Shown here piece by piece: positions 29,851 to 43,506 of a stretch of 64,000 nt of DNA. The stretch's first letter is position 1. Every line of letters starts with the position of its first letter. The stretch spans positions 1 through 64,000 of the forward strand of contig NZ_JAUSSZ010000015.1 of the NCBI RefSeq assembly GCF_030812595.1. Reading direction: 5' to 3'. The notes under the pieces were generated by a model that searched no databases, had not been told where the DNA came from, and saw only the letters and a list, made by a program, of their open reading frames with translations. Source of the DNA: Arthrobacter bambusae. Lineage in GTDB: Bacteria > Actinomycetota > Actinomycetes > Actinomycetales > Micrococcaceae. Both the position numbers and the translations under genes were made by a program.

Positions 29851-30165
29851 ATGACCATCACCCCAGAAGCTCCTACCCTCAACGCCCCGGTGGACGTTCG
29901 CTTCACCAAGGCCGGCACTCCCCTGGCCGTCCGCTATGACGGACGCATTTGGGCTGTCGCTGAAGAACCCGTGCGCTGGTTCACCAGGGACTCATGGTGG
30001 GAAACCCGCCGAAGCGTTCCCGTAGGCGTCGGGAACGTCGTCGATATCGAACACTGGCGTGTTCAGGTTCGCCTCGGCGGCTCGGACTCGCCGCTACGGA
30101 CCTTCGAACTGCGCCGCGAACCCCTGACTGAACAGTGGCTGCTTGAGTACATCACTGACATCTGA
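29851..30165 (+). CDS. DUF6504-like protein of the mutagenesis cassette
   Basis: The 104-aa protein starts 39 bp after umuC. Its pattern (VRYDGRIWAVAEEPVRWFTRDSWWETRR...EHWRVQV) resembles the small DUF6504 proteins found beside error-prone polymerases in actinobacteria. The function is unknown, but the position suggests a partner in translesion synthesis. Assignment is from memory of the family pattern. Confidence 0.6.
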   Translation: MTITPEAPTLNAPVDVRFTKAGTPLAVRYDGRIWAVAEEPVRWFTRDSWWETRRSVPVGVGNVVDIEHWRVQVRLGGSDSPLRTFELRREPLTEQWLLEYITDI

Positions 30166-30236
30166 GGCCCGAAGCACGCACGTGCGGGGAAACTGTGAGC
30201 CGGACAACATTGCGCGGCCAACGTGCCGCTCAATAC

Positions 30237-30551
30237 CTAGAGTTTGTCGATCCAAGTCTCTTCTTCGCGGTCGTCCCAGGAAGACCCAGTTGTACTGGGC
30301 TTTCCTTGTGCTCGTTGCTCGATTGTGTTGAGCACGCGCCGAACTTCCACCGCGTGGAGCTCACGTAATGATGCAATGTCCCGAATGACAACGGAATTGA
30401 TCAGTGCTTTCCGCTCCCCTTGCTCCGAGATACCTGCCCTGTCGAACGCTTCACGTATCTGCTGTACCTGTTCACTCCGAATTGGCAGATCCTGATGTAA
30501 AGCAGGTGCTGTATCAGTCGGGATATCAAAGAGTCCTGGGGCTTCGCTCAC
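30237..30551 (-). CDS. Small acidic protein at the end of the defence operon
   Basis: The 104-aa product starts at GTG 30551, 30 bp after the helicase stop, and is the last gene of the leftward operon. The middle (VQQIREAFDRAGISEQGERKALINSVVIRDIASLRELHAVEVRRVL, about residues 28-74; quoted here only as key parts QQIREAF, GISEQGER, SLRELHAVEVRRVL) resembles the small helical domain seen at the end of some phage recombinases. There is no clear ribosome site, so it may depend on coupling. Function unknown. Confidence 0.6.
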   Translation of the reverse strand: MSEAPGLFDIPTDTAPALHQDLPIRSEQVQQIREAFDRAGISEQGERKALINSVVIRDIASLRELHAVEVRRVLNTIEQRAQGKPSTTGSSWDDREEETWIDKL

Positions 30552-30581
30552 GAAGAGACATCTTATCTTCGGGGCTTGTGT

Positions 30582-33500
30582 CTACACGTCCATGTCGTTC
30601 GGCTGAACCGGCAGGATGTCGGCCAATTGCGGGGTGCCGTAAGTCAGGAGCATCAGGTTGGGGTCGTCGCTAACGTCCCAAGCCTCGCGGTTAAAGGTAA
30701 CCCGGACAGTCTGCACCGCATTCCGGGGGCTCAAGTACGCTTGGGCGTCCGGCTGACCGGAGTGACAGTCAAATGATGTTGCAGAGTGCCTTCCAGGGAT
30801 GGTCAAGCGGTAGATTCTGGACGTTGGCTCCTCCAGTGTCAGGAGCCGGCTGGTGAGTGCATTCCGCGTCAGCAGCAGTTCGATGTCCGACAGGCCCGTT
30901 TCACCGACCAGTTTGGGTGGAGCGTGAACACGCCCGGTGACATCGGGGGCGCTTCCGAAGTCGTCCTTTTTCAGGGGCTGGTCTCGAAGCTCGCCCGCTT
31001 GTTGGCGGATGTAGTCCACTTGCTGGGCCACGTCATCCAAAGTGAGTTGGACAGACATCGCGAGTTGCTCGATAGCTTTTTCTACGTTTGCTAGCACGGG
31101 CGCTGCTTCGCCAACGATGTTTGTGAAGTCGCCGTAGTCTTGTGCGATGCCCTTGTAAACCTGTTCCTCAACGGTATCGGCGTAGAAATAGTTAGTTATC
31201 TTGATGTCGCGGTAGGTGGCACCAATACGGTCGATCCGGCCGATGCGTTGCTCAACGCGCATGAGGTTCCAAGGCATGTCGTAATTGATGAGGCGTCCTG
31301 AAGTTTGGAGGTTCAGGCCCTCGCTCATGGAGTCCGTACCGATGAGCACAGTAAGTTCGCCATTGCGAAAGCGGTTCTTGATGTCGGACTTTGTGACGAG
31401 CGTCCAGCCCTTGGAGGAATGATCATAAATTTCTCCTCCACGACCGGAGTAGCACCCGATCCTATGGTTTCCGGCCAGAATCATTCGCTCTCGTACGTAG
31501 TCCATAGTGTCGGTGTACTGAGTGAATACAACGATGCTGTCGTAGGTCATAAGGGCCTGATTGACGTCTTGCACAAGCTGGCTCGCTTTAGTGTCCTCGC
31601 CTGTGATGGTGTCTAGCTCGTTCAGGAACTTCCTAAGTTCATTGATCTCATCCCGGAGCCTGTCAGCCGACACGTCAAACTCTTCTGGGTCGAAGAGTTC
31701 GATGTCTTGGCGGTCGTCCTCCGTAAACAGCTCCCCCAGATCTTTGCCGTTTTCGAGTACGTCAAGGCGACGCTGGAGCGACTTCCTTATGGCCTCGAAC
31801 GAGGATGTTAGTCGGCGGCGGTAGACCGTCATGATGAATCCGAGCGCCTGCTTAGTTTCTTTCTTGTAGGCGTTGTAGTGACGGCGAATGTATTCCTCGA
31901 TGCGCTCATAGAGCTTGCGCTCGTTAGGTGCCAGTGCGATGAATTCATCGTTTACCTGCCGGTAAGGAATGATGACTGACTCCGGGATGATTCCAGCTGC
32001 CTGATACTCCCGCAGGGTTTGACGAGTGTTGCGAAACACTCGGTCACGCATCGGGTTGTGCCTGCGCAGCCATTTGTCCATCCATTCGGATGTCTCATTG
32101 GGCATTTGGGACAACATGTCCGCGGAGGGTTCATTGTCCGAAAGATTCAGAACAGCAAGCGAGCCTACCCAACCAAGCACCGACTCCACCTCCGCCCTAA
32201 GCTCGTTATCGTAGTCAGCGAGCGGATCCGAGAAGTAGTCGCGCAGCATTTCACACATCAGGGCCCAGCCTCGCACTCTTGGGTTTATCCCTAGCCTGGT
32301 GAAGTACTCCAAGAAGAAAAACGCCTGTTGTCCCCATTTCCCTTTCAACCCCAGTAGAGAAATGAGGTCCCAGGCCTCGTGGGCATTCATCTGCATCGGG
32401 GTCGCCGTCGCTAAGTAGAGCGCGCGCCACATGTCCTGATCACGCATTTCTAGTAAGAGTGCGAGCAACGAGTTAGGCGTATCCGTTGGTTTGGATCCGC
32501 GACGTCTAGCGTGGTGCGCCTCGTCCACTAGAACTATGTCCCAGGGGCCGGCGTCCAGAATCTGCCTTCGGCGGTCGCGGCGACGTGCCAAGTGGCTGGA
32601 GGCGAGGACGATTGGGAACGCTGACCATGGATTTGCGGCAGCGTCCACCTCAACCGGCTGATCGAATCTGTCAAGAAATCCACCCCTATCAAACCTGGGC
32701 ACGTCAAGGTTCATCTTTTCGTGCAGTTCCTCCTGCCATTGCTTCATGACAGACGCGGGAACCAGCAGAAGGGCCTTCTTTGCTCTACCTGAGGTGAACA
32801 GTTCGCGGATGACAAGACCGGCCTCTACGGTCTTGCCGAGGCCAACCTCATCAGCAAAAAGGTATCCGCGCGGGAAGGTTGAAACCACACGATTGATGAG
32901 TTCGGCCTGATGCGGCAGCGGTTGGACCCAGGCTGTACCTACACCTGTATAGGCCGACTTCCTGGGAGCCTGCGCGAAATCAACAAGCTCCTGCCATGCT
33001 GCTGTCGCATCAAAATCCACTTCTCGGGCCGGTCCGTCCCGCTCCTCCTGCTCGGCCCGTTCATCCTCTGGCGCCGGCGGCAGGGGGAGCGTCCGCGGCG
33101 CGTGCTCGATGAGATGCTGGCGTACAGCGGACGGAAGGTCAATGACCCGCCACCCAGGATCGGCTTCTCCCTCCCAGTGTTTTTCGAAGTCATGGACTTT
33201 CTTTTCCCCGATGAACTGCCATATCTCGCTCCGCCAGGAGGGATAGACGTCGAATGTCTCGTGGTTCTTTGTCCAGGCGGTAACGGATGCATTATTTGAA
33301 CCATTGAAGGCCACCCGATTGCCATGGCGATCAACGAAGATGCCGTACTTCGTGTGGAAGTATCGACCCGACTCCTGGTGCGTCAGTAGCCGCCCGCGGG
33401 CGTCGTGAGGAATACCAACCCGGATCTCCAGTCGATCGTTGGCTACCATCCAAGCGAGTACTCCAAGATGCTCGTGCTCAACGATCTTTGCGCCCTCGAT

Positions 33501-33875
33501 CTCCGGGTCAGCGAGTAACCTGGCAGCCACCACCTCATCAAGCGGTTGCCCCGCGAGTACCGCATCGACGTCTTGCTGCATGAGCTGCGCCCCCACAATG
33601 AGCCGCATTCGACCGCCATTTGCAAGGAACCGTGCCGTACCCTGGGCCGCCAGCTGAAGCTCAGCTGCGGACCAGTAACCCACGGCACGATCGTATGAAG
33701 TTGCCCGCGCCAGCATCGGAAGGTAGAAGTCATCGAAGGGGTGATCGTCTGGTGAGTACGACCCTTTGACTTCGACGTCAGTAAAGGAGTCTGCCGTTTG
33801 GTTGGAACGTGACGCGACATTGCTGGGCGTTTTTGTTTCCCCCGTCACTGCATCTTGCAGCATTCCTTCCGCCAT
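30582..33875 (-). CDS. SNF2-family helicase with N-terminal phospholipase D-like domain
   Basis: The 1097-aa protein starts at ATG 33875, 17 bp after the methyltransferase gene, with GAGGTGGGAG upstream. The PLD-like domain shows HTKYGIFVDRHGNRVAFNGS (about residues 170-190), one HxK...N half-site. The SNF2 motor has LFADEVGLGKT (about 341-351), LLVPASVMKQW, DEAHHARR (about 449-456), VVFTQYTDTMDYV and the final GTDSMSEGLNLQTSG...NLMRVEQRIGRIDRIG. It probably translocates on DNA and may cut it. In the Hma arrangement this is the H component. Confidence 0.9.
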   Translation of the reverse strand: MAEGMLQDAVTGETKTPSNVASRSNQTADSFTDVEVKGSYSPDDHPFDDFYLPMLARATSYDRAVGYWSAAELQLAAQGTARFLANGGRMRLIVGAQLMQQDVDAVLAGQPLDEVVAARLLADPEIEGAKIVEHEHLGVLAWMVANDRLEIRVGIPHDARGRLLTHQESGRYFHTKYGIFVDRHGNRVAFNGSNNASVTAWTKNHETFDVYPSWRSEIWQFIGEKKVHDFEKHWEGEADPGWRVIDLPSAVRQHLIEHAPRTLPLPPAPEDERAEQEERDGPAREVDFDATAAWQELVDFAQAPRKSAYTGVGTAWVQPLPHQAELINRVVSTFPRGYLFADEVGLGKTVEAGLVIRELFTSGRAKKALLLVPASVMKQWQEELHEKMNLDVPRFDRGGFLDRFDQPVEVDAAANPWSAFPIVLASSHLARRRDRRRQILDAGPWDIVLVDEAHHARRRGSKPTDTPNSLLALLLEMRDQDMWRALYLATATPMQMNAHEAWDLISLLGLKGKWGQQAFFFLEYFTRLGINPRVRGWALMCEMLRDYFSDPLADYDNELRAEVESVLGWVGSLAVLNLSDNEPSADMLSQMPNETSEWMDKWLRRHNPMRDRVFRNTRQTLREYQAAGIIPESVIIPYRQVNDEFIALAPNERKLYERIEEYIRRHYNAYKKETKQALGFIMTVYRRRLTSSFEAIRKSLQRRLDVLENGKDLGELFTEDDRQDIELFDPEEFDVSADRLRDEINELRKFLNELDTITGEDTKASQLVQDVNQALMTYDSIVVFTQYTDTMDYVRERMILAGNHRIGCYSGRGGEIYDHSSKGWTLVTKSDIKNRFRNGELTVLIGTDSMSEGLNLQTSGRLINYDMPWNLMRVEQRIGRIDRIGATYRDIKITNYFYADTVEEQVYKGIAQDYGDFTNIVGEAAPVLANVEKAIEQLAMSVQLTLDDVAQQVDYIRQQAGELRDQPLKKDDFGSAPDVTGRVHAPPKLVGETGLSDIELLLTRNALTSRLLTLEEPTSRIYRLTIPGRHSATSFDCHSGQPDAQAYLSPRNAVQTVRVTFNREAWDVSDDPNLMLLTYGTPQLADILPVQPNDMDV

Positions 33876-33891
33876 GTCGTCTCCCACCTCA

Positions 33892-36798
33892 CTACATCTC
33901 GAAGAGTGTGGCGGTTGGTTCAGTTGCAACTACCGCCAGTTCCTCGGCTTCCGGCAGCGAAACGTCAGGGAAATACAGGGTGCAAAGCGTGTCAAGAAGT
34001 TCTGCTTCGGGTACTACATAAGTGCCCTTGATTTTTGTGCGCGGGACGGCGTTAACGAGCCCCTGCAAGGTCGAAACAAAGGCACCATCGCCTGTATACC
34101 CGTGGCGGTCCAGGAAGCGCTTCACTGCCTGGGTCCCGTCGACAGCGGCAATATAGAGTGCAGTGTCTACGGCATCAATTACATATTCGAATGCTTCGGC
34201 GTCCGGCCGTACGCCTGGCAATGCACTGTCGGCGGTTCGTCGAAGTCGCTCATGGGGAGCTAGAAGCGTCACCATTCCCGCACTCTTCGAGATGATTTTC
34301 GCGCGTTCAAGACTGTCCACATCCAACCCACCGACCGCGAGTGCCAGGAGGCGCGCGGTATCGAACGGGAACTGGCGTGCGCCGAAGATATCCCATGCCA
34401 TGAGGACAAAGTCCGTCAGATCATCGACCTTCGGAGCATTCCCAACAAGTCGTGAGCGACGCAGATCGACGACTTCCTCACGTGCGATATTGAGCGCGTC
34501 TTCCGGTCGCAGGAGTTGGTCACGTCCGTCGGCGTCGGGTGTTGAAGAGTAGACGGGCCAATGACGAGAAATGACTGACAATGTTGGCCCATATGTAGAC
34601 AGCAATAGGTCAACCCCGTCAATACCGTCGTGCTGGAAACGCTGGGCAGCATCACGAGCGGCTTGGCGAATATCCTGCTCGATGTCATCAAGATAGGACT
34701 GGACGCCGTCGTCCCGATCGTCCCGTTTGCGGCACACGAGCATGATTGTCGATGCGGCAGAGTTCATGTTCGCTTGGTGCAAGGAGGTTTCAGCTTCAGT
34801 GTTCACCGGCCACGACGTTTCGATAGTGAACCCAGCCTGCAGGAGGCCCATACCAAGGGTGTCCCATGCCTCGGCACGCTTGTGCGTGAACATCACCGAC
34901 AGGACGCCATCATCGCGGAGTACACGACGAGCTTCACTAAAGATGGCCGTCATCTTTGTTTCATAGTCCAGATCGGCAAGCTCTTTCTTCCGCCGACCAA
35001 GGGCTGCGAAACGAGCAAGGTTTGCGACAGCTTCGTTATCCTTGTCGCTGAGCTCATCACCGAAAAACTCCGGGACAAGTCGGCCGAGCGTCCGTTTCTC
35101 CCATACGTAAAAGAAGTCTGCCAGCTCGGCGTACATCACGTTGTCATAGTAGGGAGGATCCATGCAGATGTGTGCAATTGACTTCGCATCGAGAGCGAGG
35201 TCTGTGGCGCTTCCCTGCGTTACCGTTACCTTGCGCTCCAGTGGTTCTTGACCTTGGTAATCGACTGCTCCGGTCTCATCCAGGAGTCGGGCAATTCCGC
35301 CGTAGGCATCGAGCAATTGATCCAAACACCAGGAATAAAGCGCGGTGGCACCTTCAAACTCAGCAAAGGTCCATTTGAAGGCAAAGTCGTGACGCTCGAA
35401 TACGCTGCGCATAACCTGTTTGCTTACATGCCACGATCCAAGGCGTGAATTGTAATTCAGCGCCTTGCCCTGCATAAGAGCCAACTCGAAGAGCACATCG
35501 TCGGCACGGTCACCTAGGGCCGCCCGAACTTCCGGGATTAGGTTTGCGAACTCTTCGCCGAATGTCCCGTGCACGAGAGCTTGCCTGGGCGAGAAAAAAT
35601 CAACCCATCGATCCAATCCATAGTGCTTGGGGCGAAGGTCGTTGCCCTCCGGGAATTCTTCGGTCGGAAGGATGCCCTCCATAAACCATCGGTCCCTGAG
35701 ACTCTCGAATTCGCGGTCCGCCTTCTCGACGGCATCAAGATCGTCCTGAGTCGGGGCACGGAATGTCCGTTCTCCGCCAGCGGTCTTGACGGACAACGCG
35801 TAGAGCATCTGCGTCATGCGGCCGCCTTGGGCTTCCGCTTTGATGTATTCTCCGTCGATGACAAGATTGTCGTACGGCGAGATTGCCTTCCCGCGGCCCG
35901 TAGTACCGACGGCGGCATCTTGCTTGTCAACGCTCGTTCCCAAAACCACTTCGAACTCAGGCTGAGAAAGCTGCACACCGTCGATCTCTGTAATTAGTCG
36001 AACGGCTGCTTCCTTGCCAGGGACCTTGCGTAGCCACTTGTCCGGCAGCAGTGGCACCGCACGCCCGGTCCGCGGGCAGGTGATTGCGTTCACCCAGATG
36101 TAGGCAATGACTCTTTCGCCGGCATTCAACGGGAAAAAGGACTTGAGCCTCTTTTCTGTGCGGGAAATGAGAATGTTGCCCCAGTGTTTGAGGTCATTCC
36201 CAAGCGCAGAACCGTGCCTCGCGGGCACTTGAACTCCGGCCTTTAGCACGCTCGCTGCCACACCATTCAGGTCATTGGCGAAGGCCGGCAGTCCCAACCT
36301 GCTTGCCGCCCAGGGGATAGAGCCACCCCCGGCGGTAGGGTCTGCAACCGTGGGGAGTTCTCCCCACGTTCGCCGTAGTACTGCGTGGAGCAAATCGATG
36401 TCCTGCCGGGGAATGGCATTACGAAAAGCCTGCTTATACCCGTAACCATTGCCCTGGAGCTTCACTCCTGCGGCGTTGGCCGCGTCGATAACCTTACGGC
36501 CGTGCACCGGGTCACCCCAGATTCCCACCAAGTGAAGGAGCCAGCGCCGATACGCGGCTTCATTTGACAGTTCGGGAGCGTCTGGAAATGCAGCGGCTAG
36601 ATCGTCATCCCAAGTTGGCAGGAGGCCGGCGATCGCGACAGCAGCGGAGGCCACTAGTGGACGCCGGGCCCACCATATGTGGAGAAAGGAGAGCGGTGGG
36701 AGAGCTGATGCGGCTCCCCGCTCTCGGCGGGATTCTACGCCTAGTTCAGCAACGGGCAGCCAGTCTTCAATAAGCAGGCGAGCTTTTTGTACAGTCAC
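33892..36798 (-). CDS. DUF1156 DNA methyltransferase
   Basis: The 968-aa protein begins with the DUF1156 pattern (ARLLIEDWLPVAELGVESRRE and LSFLHIWWARRPLVASAA, about residues 5-55). SAM-binding motif I is DPTAGGGSIPWAA (about 153-165) and the amino-methyltransferase catalytic motif is DPPYYDNVMYAEL (about 545-557). It should modify adenine or cytosine amino groups. It lies 9 bp after the 155-aa gene. DUF1156 methyltransferases are known components of DUF499 anti-phage loci. The order of motifs I then IV is the usual gamma-like order. Confidence 0.92.
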   Translation of the reverse strand: MTVQKARLLIEDWLPVAELGVESRRERGAASALPPLSFLHIWWARRPLVASAAVAIAGLLPTWDDDLAAAFPDAPELSNEAAYRRWLLHLVGIWGDPVHGRKVIDAANAAGVKLQGNGYGYKQAFRNAIPRQDIDLLHAVLRRTWGELPTVADPTAGGGSIPWAASRLGLPAFANDLNGVAASVLKAGVQVPARHGSALGNDLKHWGNILISRTEKRLKSFFPLNAGERVIAYIWVNAITCPRTGRAVPLLPDKWLRKVPGKEAAVRLITEIDGVQLSQPEFEVVLGTSVDKQDAAVGTTGRGKAISPYDNLVIDGEYIKAEAQGGRMTQMLYALSVKTAGGERTFRAPTQDDLDAVEKADREFESLRDRWFMEGILPTEEFPEGNDLRPKHYGLDRWVDFFSPRQALVHGTFGEEFANLIPEVRAALGDRADDVLFELALMQGKALNYNSRLGSWHVSKQVMRSVFERHDFAFKWTFAEFEGATALYSWCLDQLLDAYGGIARLLDETGAVDYQGQEPLERKVTVTQGSATDLALDAKSIAHICMDPPYYDNVMYAELADFFYVWEKRTLGRLVPEFFGDELSDKDNEAVANLARFAALGRRKKELADLDYETKMTAIFSEARRVLRDDGVLSVMFTHKRAEAWDTLGMGLLQAGFTIETSWPVNTEAETSLHQANMNSAASTIMLVCRKRDDRDDGVQSYLDDIEQDIRQAARDAAQRFQHDGIDGVDLLLSTYGPTLSVISRHWPVYSSTPDADGRDQLLRPEDALNIAREEVVDLRRSRLVGNAPKVDDLTDFVLMAWDIFGARQFPFDTARLLALAVGGLDVDSLERAKIISKSAGMVTLLAPHERLRRTADSALPGVRPDAEAFEYVIDAVDTALYIAAVDGTQAVKRFLDRHGYTGDGAFVSTLQGLVNAVPRTKIKGTYVVPEAELLDTLCTLYFPDVSLPEAEELAVVATEPTATLFEM

Positions 36799-36807
36799 GA
36801 TGTTCTC

Positions 36808-37275
36808 TCAGTCGTCCGCTAGAAGGGTCCGCAGCGCACGGCGCGCCCGGTTGGCTTCGACGCCAATGCACTTCGAGTACCAGTAGTAGGTCTCCTCTGT
36901 GCTCATGGAGTTGATGCCCGCGACCAAGGCGCGGACGCGTGGATGCTTTGTGACGGGCTGGGTGGCCAGCAGGACAAGTGCTAGCCGCACACCGTCAGCT
37001 TCAGTGAGTTGGATGGGCTCTCTCCGAGTGAAAGCTAGCAAGCTTGGTGCGTGGCCGGAGTTCCGGACTGCGGCAAACAGCGCGTCGACGATCCTGCCGG
37101 TCTGTCCCGGGGTTGCCCTCGTGACGGTCGCGGCTAGCGTGTCACCGTAGGTCTCCTCAAGGCTGATTCCATAGGTGTCACCGCGCCCATGAATCACTTT
37201 GAGCCGGAACGCCCGAGCCCCAGTCACGGGGAGTAGAGAGCGCTGCACTGATCGTGATCGCTGGAGTAGTGTCAT
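36808..37275 (-). CDS. Unknown 155-aa protein embedded in the defence operon
   Basis: The start overlaps the ATPase stop by 4 nt and it ends 9 bp before the methyltransferase, so it is surely co-expressed. The sequence has a basic beta-rich N-terminus (SRSVQRSLLPVTGARAFRLKVIH) and a helical C-terminus (STEETYYWYSKCIGVEANRARRALRTLLADD, split here as EETYYWYSKCIG and RARRALRTLL). It is not the DUF3780 pattern I know. Proteins of this size in the same slot are candidates for specificity or switch factors. Confidence 0.7.
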   Translation of the reverse strand: MTLLQRSRSVQRSLLPVTGARAFRLKVIHGRGDTYGISLEETYGDTLAATVTRATPGQTGRIVDALFAAVRNSGHAPSLLAFTRREPIQLTEADGVRLALVLLATQPVTKHPRVRALVAGINSMSTEETYYWYSKCIGVEANRARRALRTLLADD

Positions 37276-40200
37276 TTGCTTACCTCCGCCGCCATCGTTG
37301 TGTGCTGGATCAAGAGGTTTTTGATGACGGTGTGGATCTGGCGCATTTCGGCATGATCGCCCTCAACGGCGGGGCTGAAGTTAATTTCCAAGGTGAGATC
37401 TCCCGCTACCTTGGTCGAGCTTCCCAGAGCCTTCTTGATTTGGTTGTATGCCGCTTGGAAGTCCTGTCTCTGGGCAGCCCCAGAAAACGCAAGCCCTCCC
37501 CCCGACAGTCCCTTATATTCAGCTCGAATCATTGCCCTGACTGTGATGTTGTGCTTTTGGAGCATCCCAAGCGCAGCCACGGCCAGGTCTATGTCCTTAG
37601 TCCCAGTAGCTTCGTCAGCGGAAACCTTGATGGTGAGACGGCTGATTGTCTGAATCGTAAAATCGGAAACTTGGTCGACGATGCTCTGAAGGGCCGCCCC
37701 GCCTGGGCCGGAAGCGCTGAACGTCTTGCTAGTCAGGACCCGGGTGGGCACCTCAACGCCGAGACGATCTGCCTCCTCGCGGGCCAGGAGGATCAATCCG
37801 TCCAGCCCTCTGTCCTTGATGGCACTAGGTGAGAGAGCACGGACGCCTGCAGCAGGCTCGGTGTCGAGGACGGCGAACCACTTGTAGTCACTCGCTTGAA
37901 CAGCGGTGGCGAGCAGTTCGAGGACTTCCGTTTTTGATGGCTCGCCGCCGCACTCAGCTTCGAGACGGCCTCGCACTTCTGCTCCAGTCAACCGTTCTGA
38001 GGTAAGGATCGCGCGGAGATCAGTCTGCGTAGGCTTTCGGACCAGTAGCCCCCGGCTCTGAGCCTCAGCCGTCGTCATGATCTCGGTGTCATTGGCGAAA
38101 CCGATGGTCATGCCGGCCATGGTGTGAGCCGTGTAGGACTTGCCATTTCCACCGTCGTAGTAGACCCATCCTTCGTTCTTCACCCCGTTGATGATGGCTT
38201 CACGAATAAGCGCTGGGTTCCGGACGATTTGGATGCTGTGATCGGTCCAGAAAAAATCAACGATGGCGGAGGTCGTCGATGATGGAGTATTTGGCCAGGT
38301 CTTGGACTTGAGGTAGGCAGCAGTGAAGGGCTCGGACCGGATTTTGCCCTCATCTTCGAGGAGGGTTATCACGGCTGAAGTGGCGTTCTTTGGGTTTCCC
38401 TGCGCTTGGGTGGGCAACTCGCGGTGTCGGAGGTAGCTAGTGCTCCTATCTCCGTAGGGATAGTAGATGTGTTTGTAGCAACGGTTGACCGCAATTCGGG
38501 CATCAAGAGCCGCCTGCTTTTGGAAGACCTCTACCTTATTGCGGACCTCCGGGCTGAACTGGCTGAGCCGGGCAGTATCGGACCACAGGCTGTCCGCGGC
38601 GATGCGAGCACGGGCGCGATCTTTCAGTGCTTCTATCTGATCACTGTCAGCAAGCGCGAAAACGATTGAATTGCGGAATTTGCGAGGGGCGCGGACCGAG
38701 CCAGCCTTATCGATCATGTCGATGACGAGGCTGGGTGGAGCGTCAGCGTTTTTGGTCTCTACGGTGACCACCCGATAGTCGAGGACGGCAACCCGAAGAC
38801 TGGGCTGGTCCACGATGTCTACGGGGCCGTTTGGGAAGTGCACGGCAACAGCACCAGCGTCGTTGGCGAAGGCATTCACGATGAGACTGTCGACCATCGC
38901 AGCTACGGCTGTATTGGCGACGTTGCGTTTTTCAGTCTCGATAATGGCGTTTACGTTCGGCTCGATGTTGAATCGCCACCGGGCTCCATCGAAGGATAGG
39001 TGCCAAAACTTCTTTTCGGACTCCGTCAGGGCTTTCTCGAAAATTGTGGCATCTTCGCCAGGACGGAGGGTGCCCACGATCCAGTCGTTGCGGCTGGCAC
39101 CTGCTGTGGAGACCATCTCAAGTGAGTGCGTGAAAACGGTTCGTGCCACCCGGGTGGCATAGCTGGGCCTGCCTGGGAACACTTCTTCATCGACCGCTGC
39201 GGCGTGCGAGTTGGGGCCTGCGAAGTCACCCACGGCGACTGAAGCAAATTCGCCTCTTCCAAGGCCATCGGTCAGGTGGTTGAGGACCGGTTCGTTTGCG
39301 TAATCGAGATCGCCAATGTTGATTACGGCGGCATCCAGGTCAGTCGCATAGATGTTCGCGACAACTTCTGCAAGTAGTTTCAATGCGCCACGTGCGCGCT
39401 GGAACTGAGTGATATTACCCAGACGCTTGTCGAGTACCCGCACCAGCTCGGGATGGAACGGGTACGTCTTGGTCAGCAGTTCACCGTACGTCGCGGGCCG
39501 TTCCGGGCCACCAGCCAGCGGCTCTGTCTTTCCCAGTGCTTCATAAAAGCTCTGGTATGCCTGGCCTGCTTCACGAGCGGCGGTCTCATCCACGGAGACA
39601 AAGAGTCGCTTTTTTAGTATCTCGCCGATTTCGTTGTCATCCGCGGGCTTAATAACGGCGGAGGGTTGAACCGACCTGGTAAGCACGTCGCCCGTTTCCG
39701 AAACGGCTGCCGTGGCAGCGGCGTCGGCTGCGGATCTATCTTCGTCGAGCAGTTCGGCGATTTCGGTGGTCTCCGCACCGAACGCATTGGTCGTGGCCGC
39801 AAGGGTAATGATGACTGAAACCCTATTGCTAGGGTCGGCTGCGACCTCGAACAGGTTGCCCAAAAACACCGGGATGGCGCGTGCCATGCGCCGTACATCT
39901 TCGCTGCCAGATGACGTGATGGCGCGGATGTACTTCGCAATTTCATCGATGATAACGATCGCAGGCTTACCGCCGAACGCGGCCTTTATCGTCCCGGTTC
40001 CGGGAGCTGTCCGGGCTGCATCGTTCGCTGCTAGCGCGGCATAGGCGTCCTCGCCAATTTGCGCTGCCAGTTCCCCCCAGAGAGTGTAAGTGCGGTGTCC
40101 GTTGGTCTCCACGCCGGCAGTTGGGTCTAGTGCGTCCCCGACGAGGGCGGCGACTTGAACCGGCTCATCAGGAAGAAGATTTGGGTCTAAGAAGTCAGAG

Positions 40201-40550
40201 ATGTTAGCTGGGCGGGCACCCTTTGCAAGGTGATAGACAGCTGTGAGGCCATGGGTCTTTCCGCCACCGAAAGATGTTGTAGGGCGCAGGACACCGTTCT
40301 CGCCTGCCACTCCGCGTGTTCCGCTTACCCGGCCGAAAGTCTTGGTCAAGAGCGTCTTTAATCCGCTCGTTGGATAGGTATGAGCGAAGAACGACTCAGC
40401 GTCACCGTAGACCGGATAGTGCTCCGCATCACGAACCACCTTGTCCAACTGCGCCGCGAAGTGATTGTCGGCGAGCCCACCTTGAAGCACGTCGTCGCGC
40501 GGCACGCAGGCCTTCCGCAATGGAATTAGGCTTGATCCGTTGCTACTCAT
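37272..40550 (-). CDS. DUF499-type anti-phage ATPase
   Basis: The 1092-aa protein shows the P-loop TSFGGGKTHGL (about residues 90-100) and Walker B AIVIIDEIAKYI (about 194-205), followed by SVIITLAATTNAFG. The arrangement, with MSSNGSSLIPLRKACVPRDDVLQGGLADNHFAA-like start (key part VPRDDVLQGGLADNHFA), fits DUF499 ATPases. These are large ATPases found with DUF1156 methyltransferases and helicases in defence islands. The start lies 8 bp after the HTH gene. Confidence 0.9.
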   Translation of the reverse strand: MSSNGSSLIPLRKACVPRDDVLQGGLADNHFAAQLDKVVRDAEHYPVYGDAESFFAHTYPTSGLKTLLTKTFGRVSGTRGVAGENGVLRPTTSFGGGKTHGLTAVYHLAKGARPANISDFLDPNLLPDEPVQVAALVGDALDPTAGVETNGHRTYTLWGELAAQIGEDAYAALAANDAARTAPGTGTIKAAFGGKPAIVIIDEIAKYIRAITSSGSEDVRRMARAIPVFLGNLFEVAADPSNRVSVIITLAATTNAFGAETTEIAELLDEDRSAADAAATAAVSETGDVLTRSVQPSAVIKPADDNEIGEILKKRLFVSVDETAAREAGQAYQSFYEALGKTEPLAGGPERPATYGELLTKTYPFHPELVRVLDKRLGNITQFQRARGALKLLAEVVANIYATDLDAAVINIGDLDYANEPVLNHLTDGLGRGEFASVAVGDFAGPNSHAAAVDEEVFPGRPSYATRVARTVFTHSLEMVSTAGASRNDWIVGTLRPGEDATIFEKALTESEKKFWHLSFDGARWRFNIEPNVNAIIETEKRNVANTAVAAMVDSLIVNAFANDAGAVAVHFPNGPVDIVDQPSLRVAVLDYRVVTVETKNADAPPSLVIDMIDKAGSVRAPRKFRNSIVFALADSDQIEALKDRARARIAADSLWSDTARLSQFSPEVRNKVEVFQKQAALDARIAVNRCYKHIYYPYGDRSTSYLRHRELPTQAQGNPKNATSAVITLLEDEGKIRSEPFTAAYLKSKTWPNTPSSTTSAIVDFFWTDHSIQIVRNPALIREAIINGVKNEGWVYYDGGNGKSYTAHTMAGMTIGFANDTEIMTTAEAQSRGLLVRKPTQTDLRAILTSERLTGAEVRGRLEAECGGEPSKTEVLELLATAVQASDYKWFAVLDTEPAAGVRALSPSAIKDRGLDGLILLAREEADRLGVEVPTRVLTSKTFSASGPGGAALQSIVDQVSDFTIQTISRLTIKVSADEATGTKDIDLAVAALGMLQKHNITVRAMIRAEYKGLSGGGLAFSGAAQRQDFQAAYNQIKKALGSSTKVAGDLTLEINFSPAVEGDHAEMRQIHTVIKNLLIQHTTMAAEVSK

Positions 40551-40558
40551 CGTGTCCC

Positions 40559-40768
40559 CTACTTGTCACTTACGTTCTCGCCAGCCGAGCCGGACGGCGC
40601 AGCGCCACCGCTGCGCACCCAGTCATCGACCTCGTGGGCCTGGAACTTCCAGAGCTTGCCCACTCTGTGAGCCGGCATGCTTTTTTCCGCAATCCAGGCG
40701 TAAACGGTGTCCTTCGAGACACCCAAATGCGCTGCAATGTCATCAGCCGACATCCAAGGTTCTGCCAT
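40559..40768 (-). CDS. Excisionase-type HTH protein heading the defence operon
   Basis: The 69-aa protein is a single HTH: MSADDIAAHLGVSKDTVYAW followed by the wing AHRVGKLWKFQAHEVDDWV. It is the first gene of the operon, 8 bp before the ATPase, which suggests self-regulation of the locus. It could instead be a true excisionase left from an integrative element. Confidence 0.85.
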   Translation of the reverse strand: MAEPWMSADDIAAHLGVSKDTVYAWIAEKSMPAHRVGKLWKFQAHEVDDWVRSGGAAPSGSAGENVSDK

Positions 40769-40926
40769 CCCGGAACCTCCATTCGACTTGCCTCAGTGCG
40801 CGCCTCGCGCAGTCCAACCATACTGGTAGCGCGCGCTGAAGGCTGATTTGGCCCGGTTTCACCGGAAGTAGAGGGGAGGAGACGGAACACTCCGGCGCCG
40901 GTGACTCCTGATGACAGCAGCTGGAG

Positions 40927-41385
40927 TCATCTTTGAAACTTCTTCATAAACCGCTTGGCGCCCCGGTCCGCGATCACTCGTCGATCCCGGTCAACCCAAA
41001 AGACAGGAATTTCAAGCAGATCTAGCGAAGACTGGATTGCTTTTACGTATTCTCGATGGAGAGCAGTAGACGGTAGGGCAATCCCTCCTTCTGCGTTCTT
41101 TCGTTCAATCACGCTCATGGCCGTATACACCGCCCTTGCTACATGCATACGGACCTGTCCACCGTCGAAGGGAAGGCCATAGCGCGGTGTTCCTTCCTGC
41201 GAACTGCCCTCGCCCTTGGCTTCGACAATCAGGCGCTGACCAGCACAAGTAGCCACGATGTCCGGCCCGTGCCTTTTGCCAACTATGTAGCTTTCGATGT
41301 GCCAACCGTGATCGCGAAGATACCTTACTGTTGCGGCAACAACTTCGTTTTCCCAAAGTATCGGGCCCGTCTCATCGGCGTCCAT
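40927..41385 (-). CDS. PD-(D/E)XK nuclease-like protein
   Basis: The 152-aa protein has the full restriction-nuclease core: Glu14 in WENEVV, Asp42 in HGPDIVA and Glu55-Ala-Lys57 in LIVEAKGEGSS. This is the Mrr/Vsr-like layout. It probably cuts DNA. It lies 158 bp before the defence operon, in the same direction, and may be part of it or a stand-alone defence gene. Confidence 0.8.
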   Translation of the reverse strand: MDADETGPILWENEVVAATVRYLRDHGWHIESYIVGKRHGPDIVATCAGQRLIVEAKGEGSSQEGTPRYGLPFDGGQVRMHVARAVYTAMSVIERKNAEGGIALPSTALHREYVKAIQSSLDLLEIPVFWVDRDRRVIADRGAKRFMKKFQR

Positions 41386-41420
41386 CCACTCATCACCAAG
41401 TTCCGACTATGTATGGGTGG

Positions 41421-41452
41421 TGTCCGGTCTTAGCAAGAAGCTAAGCCGGACA
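41421..41452. repeat. Hairpin before the nuclease gene
   Basis: TGTCCGGTCTTAG (41421-41433) pairs with CTAAGCCGGACA (41441-41452) with a 1-nt bulge. Confidence 0.5.
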
Positions 41453-41533
41453 TTATCCGTTGGTTGAGTCTCTTGCTCTACTGTCGAAATCCTCCACTCG
41501 ATGTGGAAAATTTCCGTGGTTATCCTTCAATTG

Positions 41534-41565
41534 GAAAGCCCATCGCCCCCCAACGGTGGGCTTTC
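41534..41565 (-). terminator. Hairpin after the SIR2-like gene
   Basis: GAAAGCCCA (41534-41542) and TGGGCTTTC (41557-41565) pair perfectly. It lies 45 bp past the stop of the leftward gene at 41611. Confidence 0.6.
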
Positions 41566-41610
41566 TTAGTGCCATAGGCGCCCATGCGTGATTGAAGGCT
41601 TCAGTGAGAC

Positions 41611-42858
41611 TCAGCCCCATCGATCGAATTGCTTGAGTACTTCAGAAAGCTGCCTGAGTTGTGCGTCAAACGCGTCTTCCTCCCCTTCATGAACTTTTAC
41701 CCAGCCCCATGCCTCGCGGTCACCGAATTTGCGGAAGTCTTCCTCCCAAACGTTCGCTCCTGTCGAGTGGTTCCAAGCCCTCTCCCCCGCGTACGCGCCG
41801 CCGCAGGGTCTGGGTCTGGTCGGCCCTGGGAAGAGGAACTGCAGCGCCAGGGCCATCCTGTATTCCGCTCGGCGAGTGGCGGTTTCGAGTCCAGAGGGTT
41901 CGCCTATACAGTCTGCCAGCAGGTTCTCCAAGTCTGCTGAGACGAGTTGGCTTGCCGGGTACAGCCACCGCGTCCCCTCCCATCGAGGCATGGCCTTGGC
42001 CAATTCGTAGTCGATGACATAGTCGTCTTGCAATGCCAAAAGCGCCTGCAGGTCCCTGTCTACGGTTGGGTGCCTCCACGTTGGTTCTGTAGCTGCTCGG
42101 ATGAAGACGTCCTCTCTGCCATGGCTTACGGCGATCATGGCTATCGCCCTCAAGAGGAGGAGAGCTGGATAGTGAGAGAGTTTCACCCATTTGTCGTTGT
42201 ACGTGCCCGAGTTGAGGGTTCTGGCTTTGAGTAGTCGTTGAACGGCCCATACCCAGAGATCCGTATGGATGCGGTCCCTATCCAGCATCACAGCGGTGGC
42301 CACGAGTCGGACCAAAATGCGGCTAGCCTCGCGGAGTTGTAAGCAAGATTCTTGGTAAACCTGCGGAGCATCTTCACGTCTGCCCTCGGGGAAAAGACTG
42401 CCCCTGCTCTGAATCGTTTGCTGGACTCGATTGATCTCGTCATTCAAGAGGTCTCGGATCTCAATGAAAGACTCTCGATACGGAAGCAGCTTCTTCAACC
42501 GCACTATCGCCATTTCCTCCGTCAGCGGCGGCGAGGACAAGGCGTCCAGTGATTCGAGGCGGTGCACGAGGTCCGGGAAGAACTCGTCAGCTGTCATGCC
42601 AGGGACGACGCCCGCTCCGTGCTGGTGAGCTACGGATGCTGCAGTGGGCCCGAGGGCGGTCAAAGTCGACCAATAGAGGGGATACCTTCGTGATCGCCGG
42701 CCGCGTAGAGCATCGACAAGTGCATGATCCCAGTCGGCTACGTCGGAGCATACCTTCACTTGGTCCCCGTTCAGCCTTCCAACGAGTGTCCCACTTCCTT
42801 TGAAGCGGGATGCCCTTCGTGGGACGCTCTCCCCGGTCATCCGGTTCCTGACGGCCAT
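41611..42858 (-). CDS. C-terminal half of a SIR2-type defence protein (probably truncated)
   Basis: The 415-aa frame has VADWDHALVDALRGRRSRRYPLYW (key parts ADWDHAL and SRRYPLYW, about residues 40-64) and GMTADEFFPDLVHRLESLDAL (key part ADEFFPDL, about 87-107). In SIR2-family anti-phage proteins these patterns mark the end of the NAD-consuming domain and the linker to the C-terminal helical part. The Rossmann NAD-binding segment expected before it is missing, and the start has no good ribosome site. A serine recombinase gene ends 57 bp upstream. This looks like an older defence gene cut at its 5' end. Family assignment is by pattern only. Confidence 0.55.
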   Translation of the reverse strand: MAVRNRMTGESVPRRASRFKGSGTLVGRLNGDQVKVCSDVADWDHALVDALRGRRSRRYPLYWSTLTALGPTAASVAHQHGAGVVPGMTADEFFPDLVHRLESLDALSSPPLTEEMAIVRLKKLLPYRESFIEIRDLLNDEINRVQQTIQSRGSLFPEGRREDAPQVYQESCLQLREASRILVRLVATAVMLDRDRIHTDLWVWAVQRLLKARTLNSGTYNDKWVKLSHYPALLLLRAIAMIAVSHGREDVFIRAATEPTWRHPTVDRDLQALLALQDDYVIDYELAKAMPRWEGTRWLYPASQLVSADLENLLADCIGEPSGLETATRRAEYRMALALQFLFPGPTRPRPCGGAYAGERAWNHSTGANVWEEDFRKFGDREAWGWVKVHEGEEDAFDAQLRQLSEVLKQFDRWG

Positions 42859-42915
42859 TTCCGGCCGGCTGCGTAACTTTGGCGTCCCATAAGCTGTCCC
42901 AAAACCAGGGACGCG

Positions 42916-43506
42916 TTAGGCGGCTGCGGATGCGACTTCTGGGACGTCGTTCCTGCTAAGAGCCCGAGTCAATGACGAAACACTGACGCTAAGCCGGTCT
43001 GCCGTTTCCTTCAGAGTCTTTCCTTCGTTGCGCAGCTGCCGGGCCGTTTCCAATTTCCCTGGCGTCATCGACCGCGGGCGGCCGCCGAGCCGGCCTCGCG
43101 CTTTAGCTGCGGCCAGCCCAGCTTTCGTTCTTTCCGACAGCCGTGACCGTTCGTATTCCGCGAGGGAAGCGAACATGTCAAAGATGAGCTTGCCGTGGGC
43201 ACTGGTCGTATCAAGCCAGGGTTCAGCCAGGGAGCGGAAGCCTATCCCCAGCTGACCCAGCACGGTGACGATGTCCGCAAGGTCAGAGGTACTACGTCCC
43301 AGCCTGGTCAGGTCCGCGACCAACAGCACATTGCCCGGCTGCAGATAATCCAAGCAGTCCTTCCACCGGGCCCTTGCCTGGGTAGCACCGGACGCGTACT
43401 CCTGAAAGACGCGCACCGCTCCGGCAGCTACCAAGGCGTCCACCTGCGAATCGAGTGATTGACCACGAGTGCTCACCCTCGCGTAGCCAACTATGTTCCT
43501 GGACAC
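42916..43506 (-). CDS. Serine recombinase (resolvase/invertase family)
   Basis: The 196-aa protein has the catalytic Ser12 in GYARVSTRGQ, the LLVADLTRLGRSTSDL helix (about residues 61-76), SAHGKLIFDMFASLAEYERS (about 102-121) and a C-terminal HTH (TLKETADRLSVSVSSLTRAL, about 163-182). Small resolvases cut and rejoin DNA at res sites. No transposase or terminal repeats were seen, so it may resolve plasmid multimers, which fits its place beside ParA. Confidence 0.9.
   Translation of the reverse strand: MSRNIVGYARVSTRGQSLDSQVDALVAAGAVRVFQEYASGATQARARWKDCLDYLQPGNVLLVADLTRLGRSTSDLADIVTVLGQLGIGFRSLAEPWLDTTSAHGKLIFDMFASLAEYERSRLSERTKAGLAAAKARGRLGGRPRSMTPGKLETARQLRNEGKTLKETADRLSVSVSSLTRALSRNDVPEVASAAA

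Follow-up and report, generated by a model that had tools for sequence, protein, structure and literature searches.

We analysed a stretch of 64,000 nucleotides from Arthrobacter bambusae (the window; positions 1 to 64,000 of contig NZ_JAUSSZ010000015.1), in which seven open reading frames (ORFs) between positions 30237 and 41385 form a predicted anti-phage locus centred on a DUF499 ATPase. All seven lie on the minus strand, and they are open and close-packed. In the direction of transcription they encode a putative nuclease of 152 amino acids (aa), a helix-turn-helix (HTH) protein (69 aa), the ATPase (1092 aa), a 155-aa protein, a DUF1156 methyltransferase (968 aa), a helicase (1115 aa) and a 104-aa protein. 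The nuclease and HTH genes are separated by 158 bp and the HTH and ATPase genes by 8 bp; the ATPase and 155-aa genes share 4 bp, the methylase gene follows the latter after 9 bp, and 30 bp lie between the helicase and 104-aa genes. With the mechanical TTG start, the first 38 bp of the helicase ORF lie within the methylase gene, while a downstream in-frame methionine as start would give a short gap instead. An earlier note on this DNA had described the same seven packed minus-strand ORFs, with the nuclease gene standing ahead of the others, and all of them were found where it had placed them. Searches of the window for tRNAs and for Rfam families (gathering threshold) found neither.

Four of these genes form the core of the system. 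The first (37272..40550) encodes an AAA+ ATPase of the STAND/BrxC-like type that matched Pfam DUF499 with an E value of 7e-38. Among the PADLOC models it scored 298.8 bits with HmaC and 112.9 bits with the DUF499 model, and it carries the motifs GGGKT at residue 95 and IVIIDE at residue 198. The second gene (36808..37275) encodes the 155-aa protein, a small alpha+beta protein that matched Pfam DUF7680 (PF24728, E 3e-27) with 96 bits against a curated cut-off of 24, and for which we propose a role as reader or licensing adaptor. The third (33892..36798) encodes an N6-adenine-type methyltransferase matched by Pfam DUF1156 (3e-12) and by PADLOC HmaB (256 bits), with the motifs DPTAGGG at residue 153 and DPPY at residue 547. 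The fourth (30582..33929) encodes the proposed effector, a fusion of an HKD (PLD) nuclease with an SNF2 helicase (SNF2 3e-17, Helicase_C 2e-15). Its HKD motif reads HTKYGIFVD...GSNN (HxK..D..GSxN at residue 192), with PLDc_2 reaching only 0.0059 in Pfam, below its cut-off; the motifs GLGKT, DEAH and QRIGRIDR are also present. In PADLOC its N-terminal part was best matched by PbeA (229.6 bits), followed by BrxHI (221.7), PLD_Helicase (201.5) and, further down, HmaA (170.7). Pfam and PADLOC, with HmaC and HmaB as the top models, bear out the Hma-like operon of DUF499, DUF1156 and helicase genes that the earlier note had recognised.

Relatives of the 155-aa protein were found encoded in 39 plasmid records and 229 genome stretches. 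The best 80 of the 229 were combined with the window, seven plasmid loci and two loci from whole genomes to give a set of 90 DUF7680 loci, spanning Actinomycetota to Halobacteria. PF24728 was matched at E 1 or better by all 76 members of the family alignment. An ATPase gene is present in 87 of the 90 loci, and the remaining three contigs end 2 to 288 bp upstream. The methylase is present in 79, nine of the eleven misses having less than 4 kb of DNA downstream, and the helicase in 65. Across bacteria and haloarchaea the core order is ATPase, DUF7680, DUF1156 methylase and HKD-SNF2 helicase. More specifically, the ATPase gene precedes the methylase gene in 76/76 loci having both, and the methylase gene precedes the helicase gene in 64/65, the exception (L073) having its helicase match on the opposite strand. 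By a stricter test the DUF7680 gene stands between ATPase and methylase genes in 74/76; in the two exceptions, L038 and L064, the mechanically called methylase ORF begins upstream of that of DUF7680. Since the same four core genes are found in this order in several phyla, their packing is not a matter of chance, and DUF7680 is a core part of the system. The GGGK[ST] motif was found in 73 of 80 ATPases of these loci, and 60 of 61 near-full helicases carry the HKD motif.

Among 396 genomes of the phylum, DUF499 was found in 35; DUF7680 occurred in three of these 35 and in no others, and DUF3780 in one of the 35. DUF7680 was not found in phage records, and three loci were found in IMG/VR. A locus labelled Stenotrophomonas maltophilia (L015) encodes a system with up to 81% protein identity to that of the window, HTH gene included, and may be a recent transfer or a mislabelled contig. 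On three cyanobacterial plasmids (L006, L007 and L009) the core order is kept, with the genes spaced by toxin-antitoxin and other genes.

The earlier note had observed that the 155-aa gene fills the slot occupied elsewhere by DUF3780 without resembling it. The gene order data and the profile searches agree on both points: the ATPase-first order was also seen in 10/10 DUF3780 loci, and the protein, considered as DUF3780 or as a DISARM component, matched neither in Pfam, NCBIfam or PADLOC. The DUF3780 profile likewise had no match in the genome of the window nor in any DUF7680 locus. The further description of the protein as unknown needs amending, since it belongs to a described Pfam family and, distinct from DUF3780 by hidden Markov model (HMM) as it is, is probably a remote homologue of it. 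Neither DUF7680 nor PF24728 is named in any paper of the literature searched. In that literature only a 2026 survey (PMC12839542) names two or more of DUF499, DUF1156 and DUF3780. Its main text names DUF7680 zero times, and such loci may sit unnamed in its supplementary lists. The survey, as far as its available text goes, names three BREX-Related (BR) subtypes, proposes DUF3780 as a reader in Type-2, describes DUF3780 fusions with ASCH or RAMA domains, and reports having found no definitive homologue of DUF3780.

AlphaFold2 models were compared for the two families. The DUF7680 model, built with 76 sequences, had a mean predicted local distance difference test (pLDDT) score of 88.5 and comprises strands 21-29, 35-43 and 47-54, helices 56-61, 63-72 and 77-80, strand 88-90, and helices 92-105, 111-122, 126-136 and 141-153. 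The DUF3780 model, from an IMG/VR contig with 23 sequences (pLDDT 80.4), comprises strands 20-25, 32-38 and 56-63, helix 64-84, strand 95-99, and helices 101-114, 119-130, 134-148, 157-166 and 178-183. The order of strands and helices is alike in the two models up to the last short helix. In both, the third of the four helices that follow the final strand carries at its start an invariant Glu-Glu followed by Trp (E127, E128 and W132 in DUF7680; E135, E136, W138 and W139 in DUF3780). Profile comparison with hhalign aligned the two families end-to-end over 142 columns with an E value of 0.0014. In a second profile build, E values of 0.0047 and 0.00018 were obtained depending on direction, over 138-139 columns; column shuffles scored as high in 1/400 and 0/400 cases, no shuffle aligned more than 88 columns, and the reversed profile scored 15.6. 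The DUF3780 alignment (A4) was made without L182 (on the same contig as L173), L194, L201 (stop codon), L204, L206 and L209, and the DUF7680 alignment (A3) without L011, L014, L016, L024 and L065. An N-terminal ASCH domain is fused to DUF7680 in 19 loci (L042, L043, L045, L073, L085, L087 and 13 more, apparently Chloroflexota), as detected with an HMM built from six of them; Pfam ASCH was found in 7/8 N-terminal extensions scanned.

Overall, DUF7680 is likely, though not proven, to be a remote homologue of DUF3780, as judged from profiles and predicted models. Other candidate relatives were discarded. Among solved structures none was convincing by sequence (best E 0.018, LHD101B4). VIA-align placed DUF7680 residues 91-155 on the Zuo1 domain 4gmq with Z 5.4 (top row 8eov, Z 5.5) and DUF3780 residues 99-170 on Zuo1 2lwx with Z 2.0, both too weak, and the small Pbe proteins gave no PADLOC match to DUF7680.

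Trees of the three large proteins were built from 45 of the 90 DUF7680 loci together with DUF3780 and other DUF499 loci; rows shorter than 750 aa were dropped, leaving 42 ATPases, 44 methylases and 43 helicases from DUF7680 loci. Of 36 DUF499 regions fetched, a part of the places detected in the genomes of the phylum, three hold DUF7680 or DUF3780 and 33 were left. In the ATPase tree the 42 DUF7680 rows fall on one side of a branch with a Shimodaira-Hasegawa-like approximate likelihood ratio test (SH-aLRT) support of 96, and the ten DUF3780 rows on one side of a branch with support of 100; the 44 DUF7680 methylases group with support of 98 and the 43 helicases with 87. Each of the three trees parts DUF7680, DUF3780 and other loci in a total of two changes, the minimum possible. 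Among the tree helicases the HKD motif was seen in 43/43 from DUF7680 loci, 6/7 from DUF3780 loci and 0/13 from other loci, four of these 13 being cut at the front. When the window and three far loci (Halobacterium, Leptolyngbya and one genome of the phylum of the window) were scanned with PADLOC, the ATPase was nearest to HmaC and the methylase nearest to HmaB in all four, and HmaA was never the top helicase model. Because an Hma-like ATPase and methylase are combined with an HKD helicase, a gene order and a small-gene slot as in Type-2, we describe the system as a mosaic. These sequence comparisons suggest that DUF7680 loci make up a further, mosaic subtype of DUF499 systems, the fourth on the published scheme of three, from trees that hold no Type-3 rows. 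The distinct subtype that the earlier note had suspected is borne out by all three trees; given the probable remote homology of DUF7680 to DUF3780, the word distinct fits the subtype more than the kind of part.

We therefore read the operon as a plasmid-borne, intact, restriction-modification-like predicted anti-phage system of the DUF499-centred (Hma/BREX-Related) kind, with its own subtype marked by DUF7680, and we consider this reading probable. The roles proposed below draw on knowledge of the families and on the DUF3780 proposal in PMC12839542. The DUF1156 methylase would mark host DNA at adenines as self, and the DUF499 ATPase would assemble with it on DNA and scan. The HKD-nuclease/SNF2-helicase would act as effector, cleaving or stalling unmarked (phage) DNA, with DUF7680 as an adaptor that links the effector to the state of the DNA, as proposed for DUF3780 in Type-2. 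By this analogy DUF7680 is most likely the reader or licensing adaptor of a methylation-based restriction system. As the front of the helicase is best matched by PbeA, and PbeABCD is reported to block replication without DNA cleavage (PMC6459918), an effector that blocks rather than cuts is possible. DUF7680 offers DUF3780 a candidate homologue, probably its first, with a confident model, conserved residues of its own and natural ASCH fusions, which opens the reader idea to comparative tests.

The remaining genes of the locus were not conserved with the core. The HTH protein (40559..40768), an excisionase-type protein matched by HTH_17 at 8e-14 and by NCBIfam MAD1 with 71.8 bits (cut-off 80), probably controls the operon and is lineage-specific, with a homologue near 9/89 other DUF7680 loci. 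In three DUF3780 loci, short ORFs lying upstream of DUF499 were considered as homologues and rejected, having no Pfam match. The nuclease (40927..41385) was found near none of the 89, of which 67 reach at least 1 kb before the ATPase gene, and its relatives occur in five plasmid records. Its label as PD-(D/E)XK, given in the earlier note, is backed by a motif read by eye, while Pfam offers only Hjc at E 0.17. Both genes, which the note had listed in the defence locus, are local accessories.

The 104-aa protein (30237..30551), also placed in the defence locus by the earlier note, belongs to a separate, defence-adjacent family outside the core. Its gene is in 0/89 other DUF7680 loci, 41 of which reach at least 1 kb past the helicase gene, and its family is found on Arthrobacter-type plasmids lacking the DUF7680 system. 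Absence of the small genes from related loci, which that note had named as a point that would tell against it, was found for the 104-aa gene and not for the 155-aa gene. The family was detected in 13 plasmid records (nine of them read) and in 7/197 genomes of the bacterial family, including that of the window. In the order, its profile matched 11/297 genomes, seven of the matches being to the middle part of longer proteins and one to a 43-aa fragment; among viral contigs, 89 pattern matches included no relative. The tail W-x-x-R-x-x-x-T-W-I-D plus two residues is present in 16/16 aligned members, and a Leu-Phe motif near the start in 15/16. The middle of the protein matches PHROG 4171, a family of phage RecT-like annealing proteins, in the C-terminal part of that family (1.7e-5). 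Of five longer relatives compared with Pfam, one matched RecT (6.6e-22), one gave a sub-threshold ERF match and three gave nothing; of the latter, one is RecT-like by PHROGs.

Sixteen contexts of the 104-aa gene were compared, namely the window, nine of the 13 plasmid records and six genomes in which the larger neighbouring ORFs were scanned. In 11/16, a count with no background rate for such plasmids, the gene adjoins restriction or defence genes: DNA methylases, Shedu with a methylase, BREX PglZ-BrxD-BrxHI (two genomes), PglW (one genome), a reverse transcriptase (RT)-associated/GajB-like helicase (one) and the operon of the window. Two of the remaining contexts had a weak or distant defence match and three none that was seen. 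The plasmids carrying the gene may simply be methylase-rich. From its sequence the protein appears to be a RecT-type C-terminal domain that stands alone and ends in a TWID tail, and it is possibly a decoy or sensor of phage recombination.

The plasmid look of the 97,996-base contig that holds the window comes from ParA-, ParB- and replication-like ORFs, read by eye, and from matches to plasmids. The related plasmid NZ_CP084563 has other genes in place of window positions of about 30159-42958, which lie between a UmuDC block and a resolvase, so that the entire defence segment, including the 104-aa gene, is variable cargo. The idea that the operon had been inserted between the resolvase and the 104-aa gene, drawn from their adjacency in pChr15, was weakened by the finding that the pChr15 resolvase is only 36% identical to that of the window. 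At 41611-42858 the window encodes a 415-aa PDC-S65 protein (223 bits) covering profile positions 230-589 of 592 without the front part. Its relatives are longer, for example a SIR2-annotated one in NC_008538 (1782 bp gene), and its gene, which lies at the edge of the cargo, may be a truncated defence gene. Elsewhere in the same genome, at G000:C10:123514-124035, a strong PglZ match (6e-59) suggests a BREX-type system.

Several observations weigh against the reading of a distinct DUF7680 subtype with a DUF3780-like adaptor. Regarding the homology, hhalign itself gives the link a probability of 17.9%, and with a thinner DUF3780 set the E values are 0.026 and 0.0073, with shuffles scoring as high in 5/300 and 2/200 cases. 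Rotating the DUF3780 profile by up to 26 columns still yields scores of up to 22.96 against 23.38; the rotated profiles score this close because 98 columns still align, which places the signal mainly in the last 98 columns. At E 0.001, Foldseek returned nothing for DUF7680 (PDB and BFVD) or for DUF3780 (BFVD). Regarding the subtype, the helicase branch is not starred. The trees are quick and unrooted, came with long-branch warnings (L134 and L135) and include no PglZ-type (Type-3) rows; the sole ground for separation from Type-3 is that three genomes lack PglZ. Two loci, L041 and L047, are true misses for the methylase in 8.9 and 10.0 kb of downstream DNA, and these two as well as L055 and L060 have no helicase despite more than 8.8 kb downstream.

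Four rival explanations were considered. That the operon is an ordinary Type-1 BR/Hma system with one acquired extra gene would fit the top HmaC and HmaB matches in 4/4 loci scanned and the description of Type-1 as the most widespread subtype (PMC12839542). We regard it as improbable given a reversed gene order (ATPase first in 76/76, methylase first in 28/28 other DUF499 loci having both), an HKD motif on the helicase against 0/13 others, a tree group of its own for each large protein and the retention of DUF7680 from Actinomycetota to Halobacteria. A diverged Type-2 BR branch, in which DUF3780 drifted into DUF7680, shares more with the system: the same order and slot, the HKD helicase, the order of structural elements, the ASCH fusions and the profile E value of 0.0014. 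The ATPase and methylase, however, favour Hma over Type-2-like PADLOC models, the NCBIfam antiphage equivalogs for DUF499, DUF1156 and PLD score far below their cut-offs (151/1200, 201/1000 and 342/1100 bits), and DUF3780 loci and DUF7680 loci do not overlap, so that we hold this explanation to be possible and on the unlikely side. Similarly doubtful is that DUF7680, rather than reading a DNA mark, serves the methylase or ATPase as a chaperone or specificity subunit; this role would suit the lack of any catalytic motif noticed in DUF7680 and the fact that, by mechanical ORFs, its gene and that of the ATPase overlap by 4 bp in 48/87 loci. The 104-aa protein as a fifth subunit is very unlikely: its gene follows the helicase gene closely on the same strand, but is missing from the other 89 loci, 41 of them reaching at least 1 kb past the helicase gene, and also lies near BREX genes, a type III methylase gene, a Shedu gene and others. 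Beyond the preferred reading of a distinct, DUF7680-marked subtype, we offer a wider and tentative proposal. DUF7680 and DUF3780 would form one superfamily of small licensing readers that replace the TUDOR reader wherever DUF499 systems use an HKD helicase. DUF7680 systems would be a fourth BREX-Related subtype of mosaic make-up that spans Actinomycetota, Chloroflexota, Cyanobacteria and Halobacteria, and the 104-aa protein, a stand-alone RecT-type C-terminal domain beside DNA-attacking systems, would be a decoy hindering recombinational repair of the cut phage genome.

DISARM is characterised by its DrmB and DrmC partners. Of nine window proteins scanned with PADLOC, only the helicase matched Drm models (DrmD and DrmA) among the best 25 of 47 matches, and no other BREX genes were found in the nine. 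The phosphorothioation defence Pbe shares with the operon the front of the helicase, whose N-terminal 430 residues best match PbeA, and differs in relying on Dnd sulphur modification in place of a methylase; PbeB, PbeC and PbeD are absent among the matches listed. Type-3 BREX (BrxC-BrxXI-BrxHII) similarly combines an AAA+ ATPase, an N6 methylase and an SNF2 helicase, related on the argument of PMC12839542, whereas here PglZ is not near the operon, the matches in the genome being on contigs C10 and C1 and not on C15. Hma and Type-1 BR (HmaABC; PMC8565338) provide the best matches to the ATPase and methylase. In contrast to the Type-1 locus, which according to PMC12839542 holds only ATPase, methylase and helicase, the DUF7680 system has a conserved fourth gene, and its order is reversed (ATPase first in 0/28 other loci); the Type-1 order of helicase, methylase and ATPase was taken from the other DUF499 loci fetched and not from the text of that survey. 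For the helicase, HmaA trails the PbeA, BrxHI, PLD_Helicase, DrmD and BrxHII models. The Type-1 helicase trait is a TUDOR domain with a C-terminal PD-(D/E)XK domain, and the helicase of the window was compared for the HKD motif only. Type-2 BR, whose helicases have an HKD domain where others have TUDOR, is alike in gene order and small-gene slot, in its HKD-SNF2 helicase (the window showing the N-terminal HKD by motif, with PLDc_2 under its cut-off), and in a small alpha+beta protein with the same element order and ASCH fusions. It differs in having a stand-alone DUF3780 where the HMM identifies DUF7680, in the separate tree grouping of its three large proteins, and in the NCBIfam cut-offs, which the proteins of the window miss. 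As a whole the four-gene system is not captured by the PADLOC and NCBIfam models tried, and the operon is one example of a widespread, unnamed subtype within a known kind of system.

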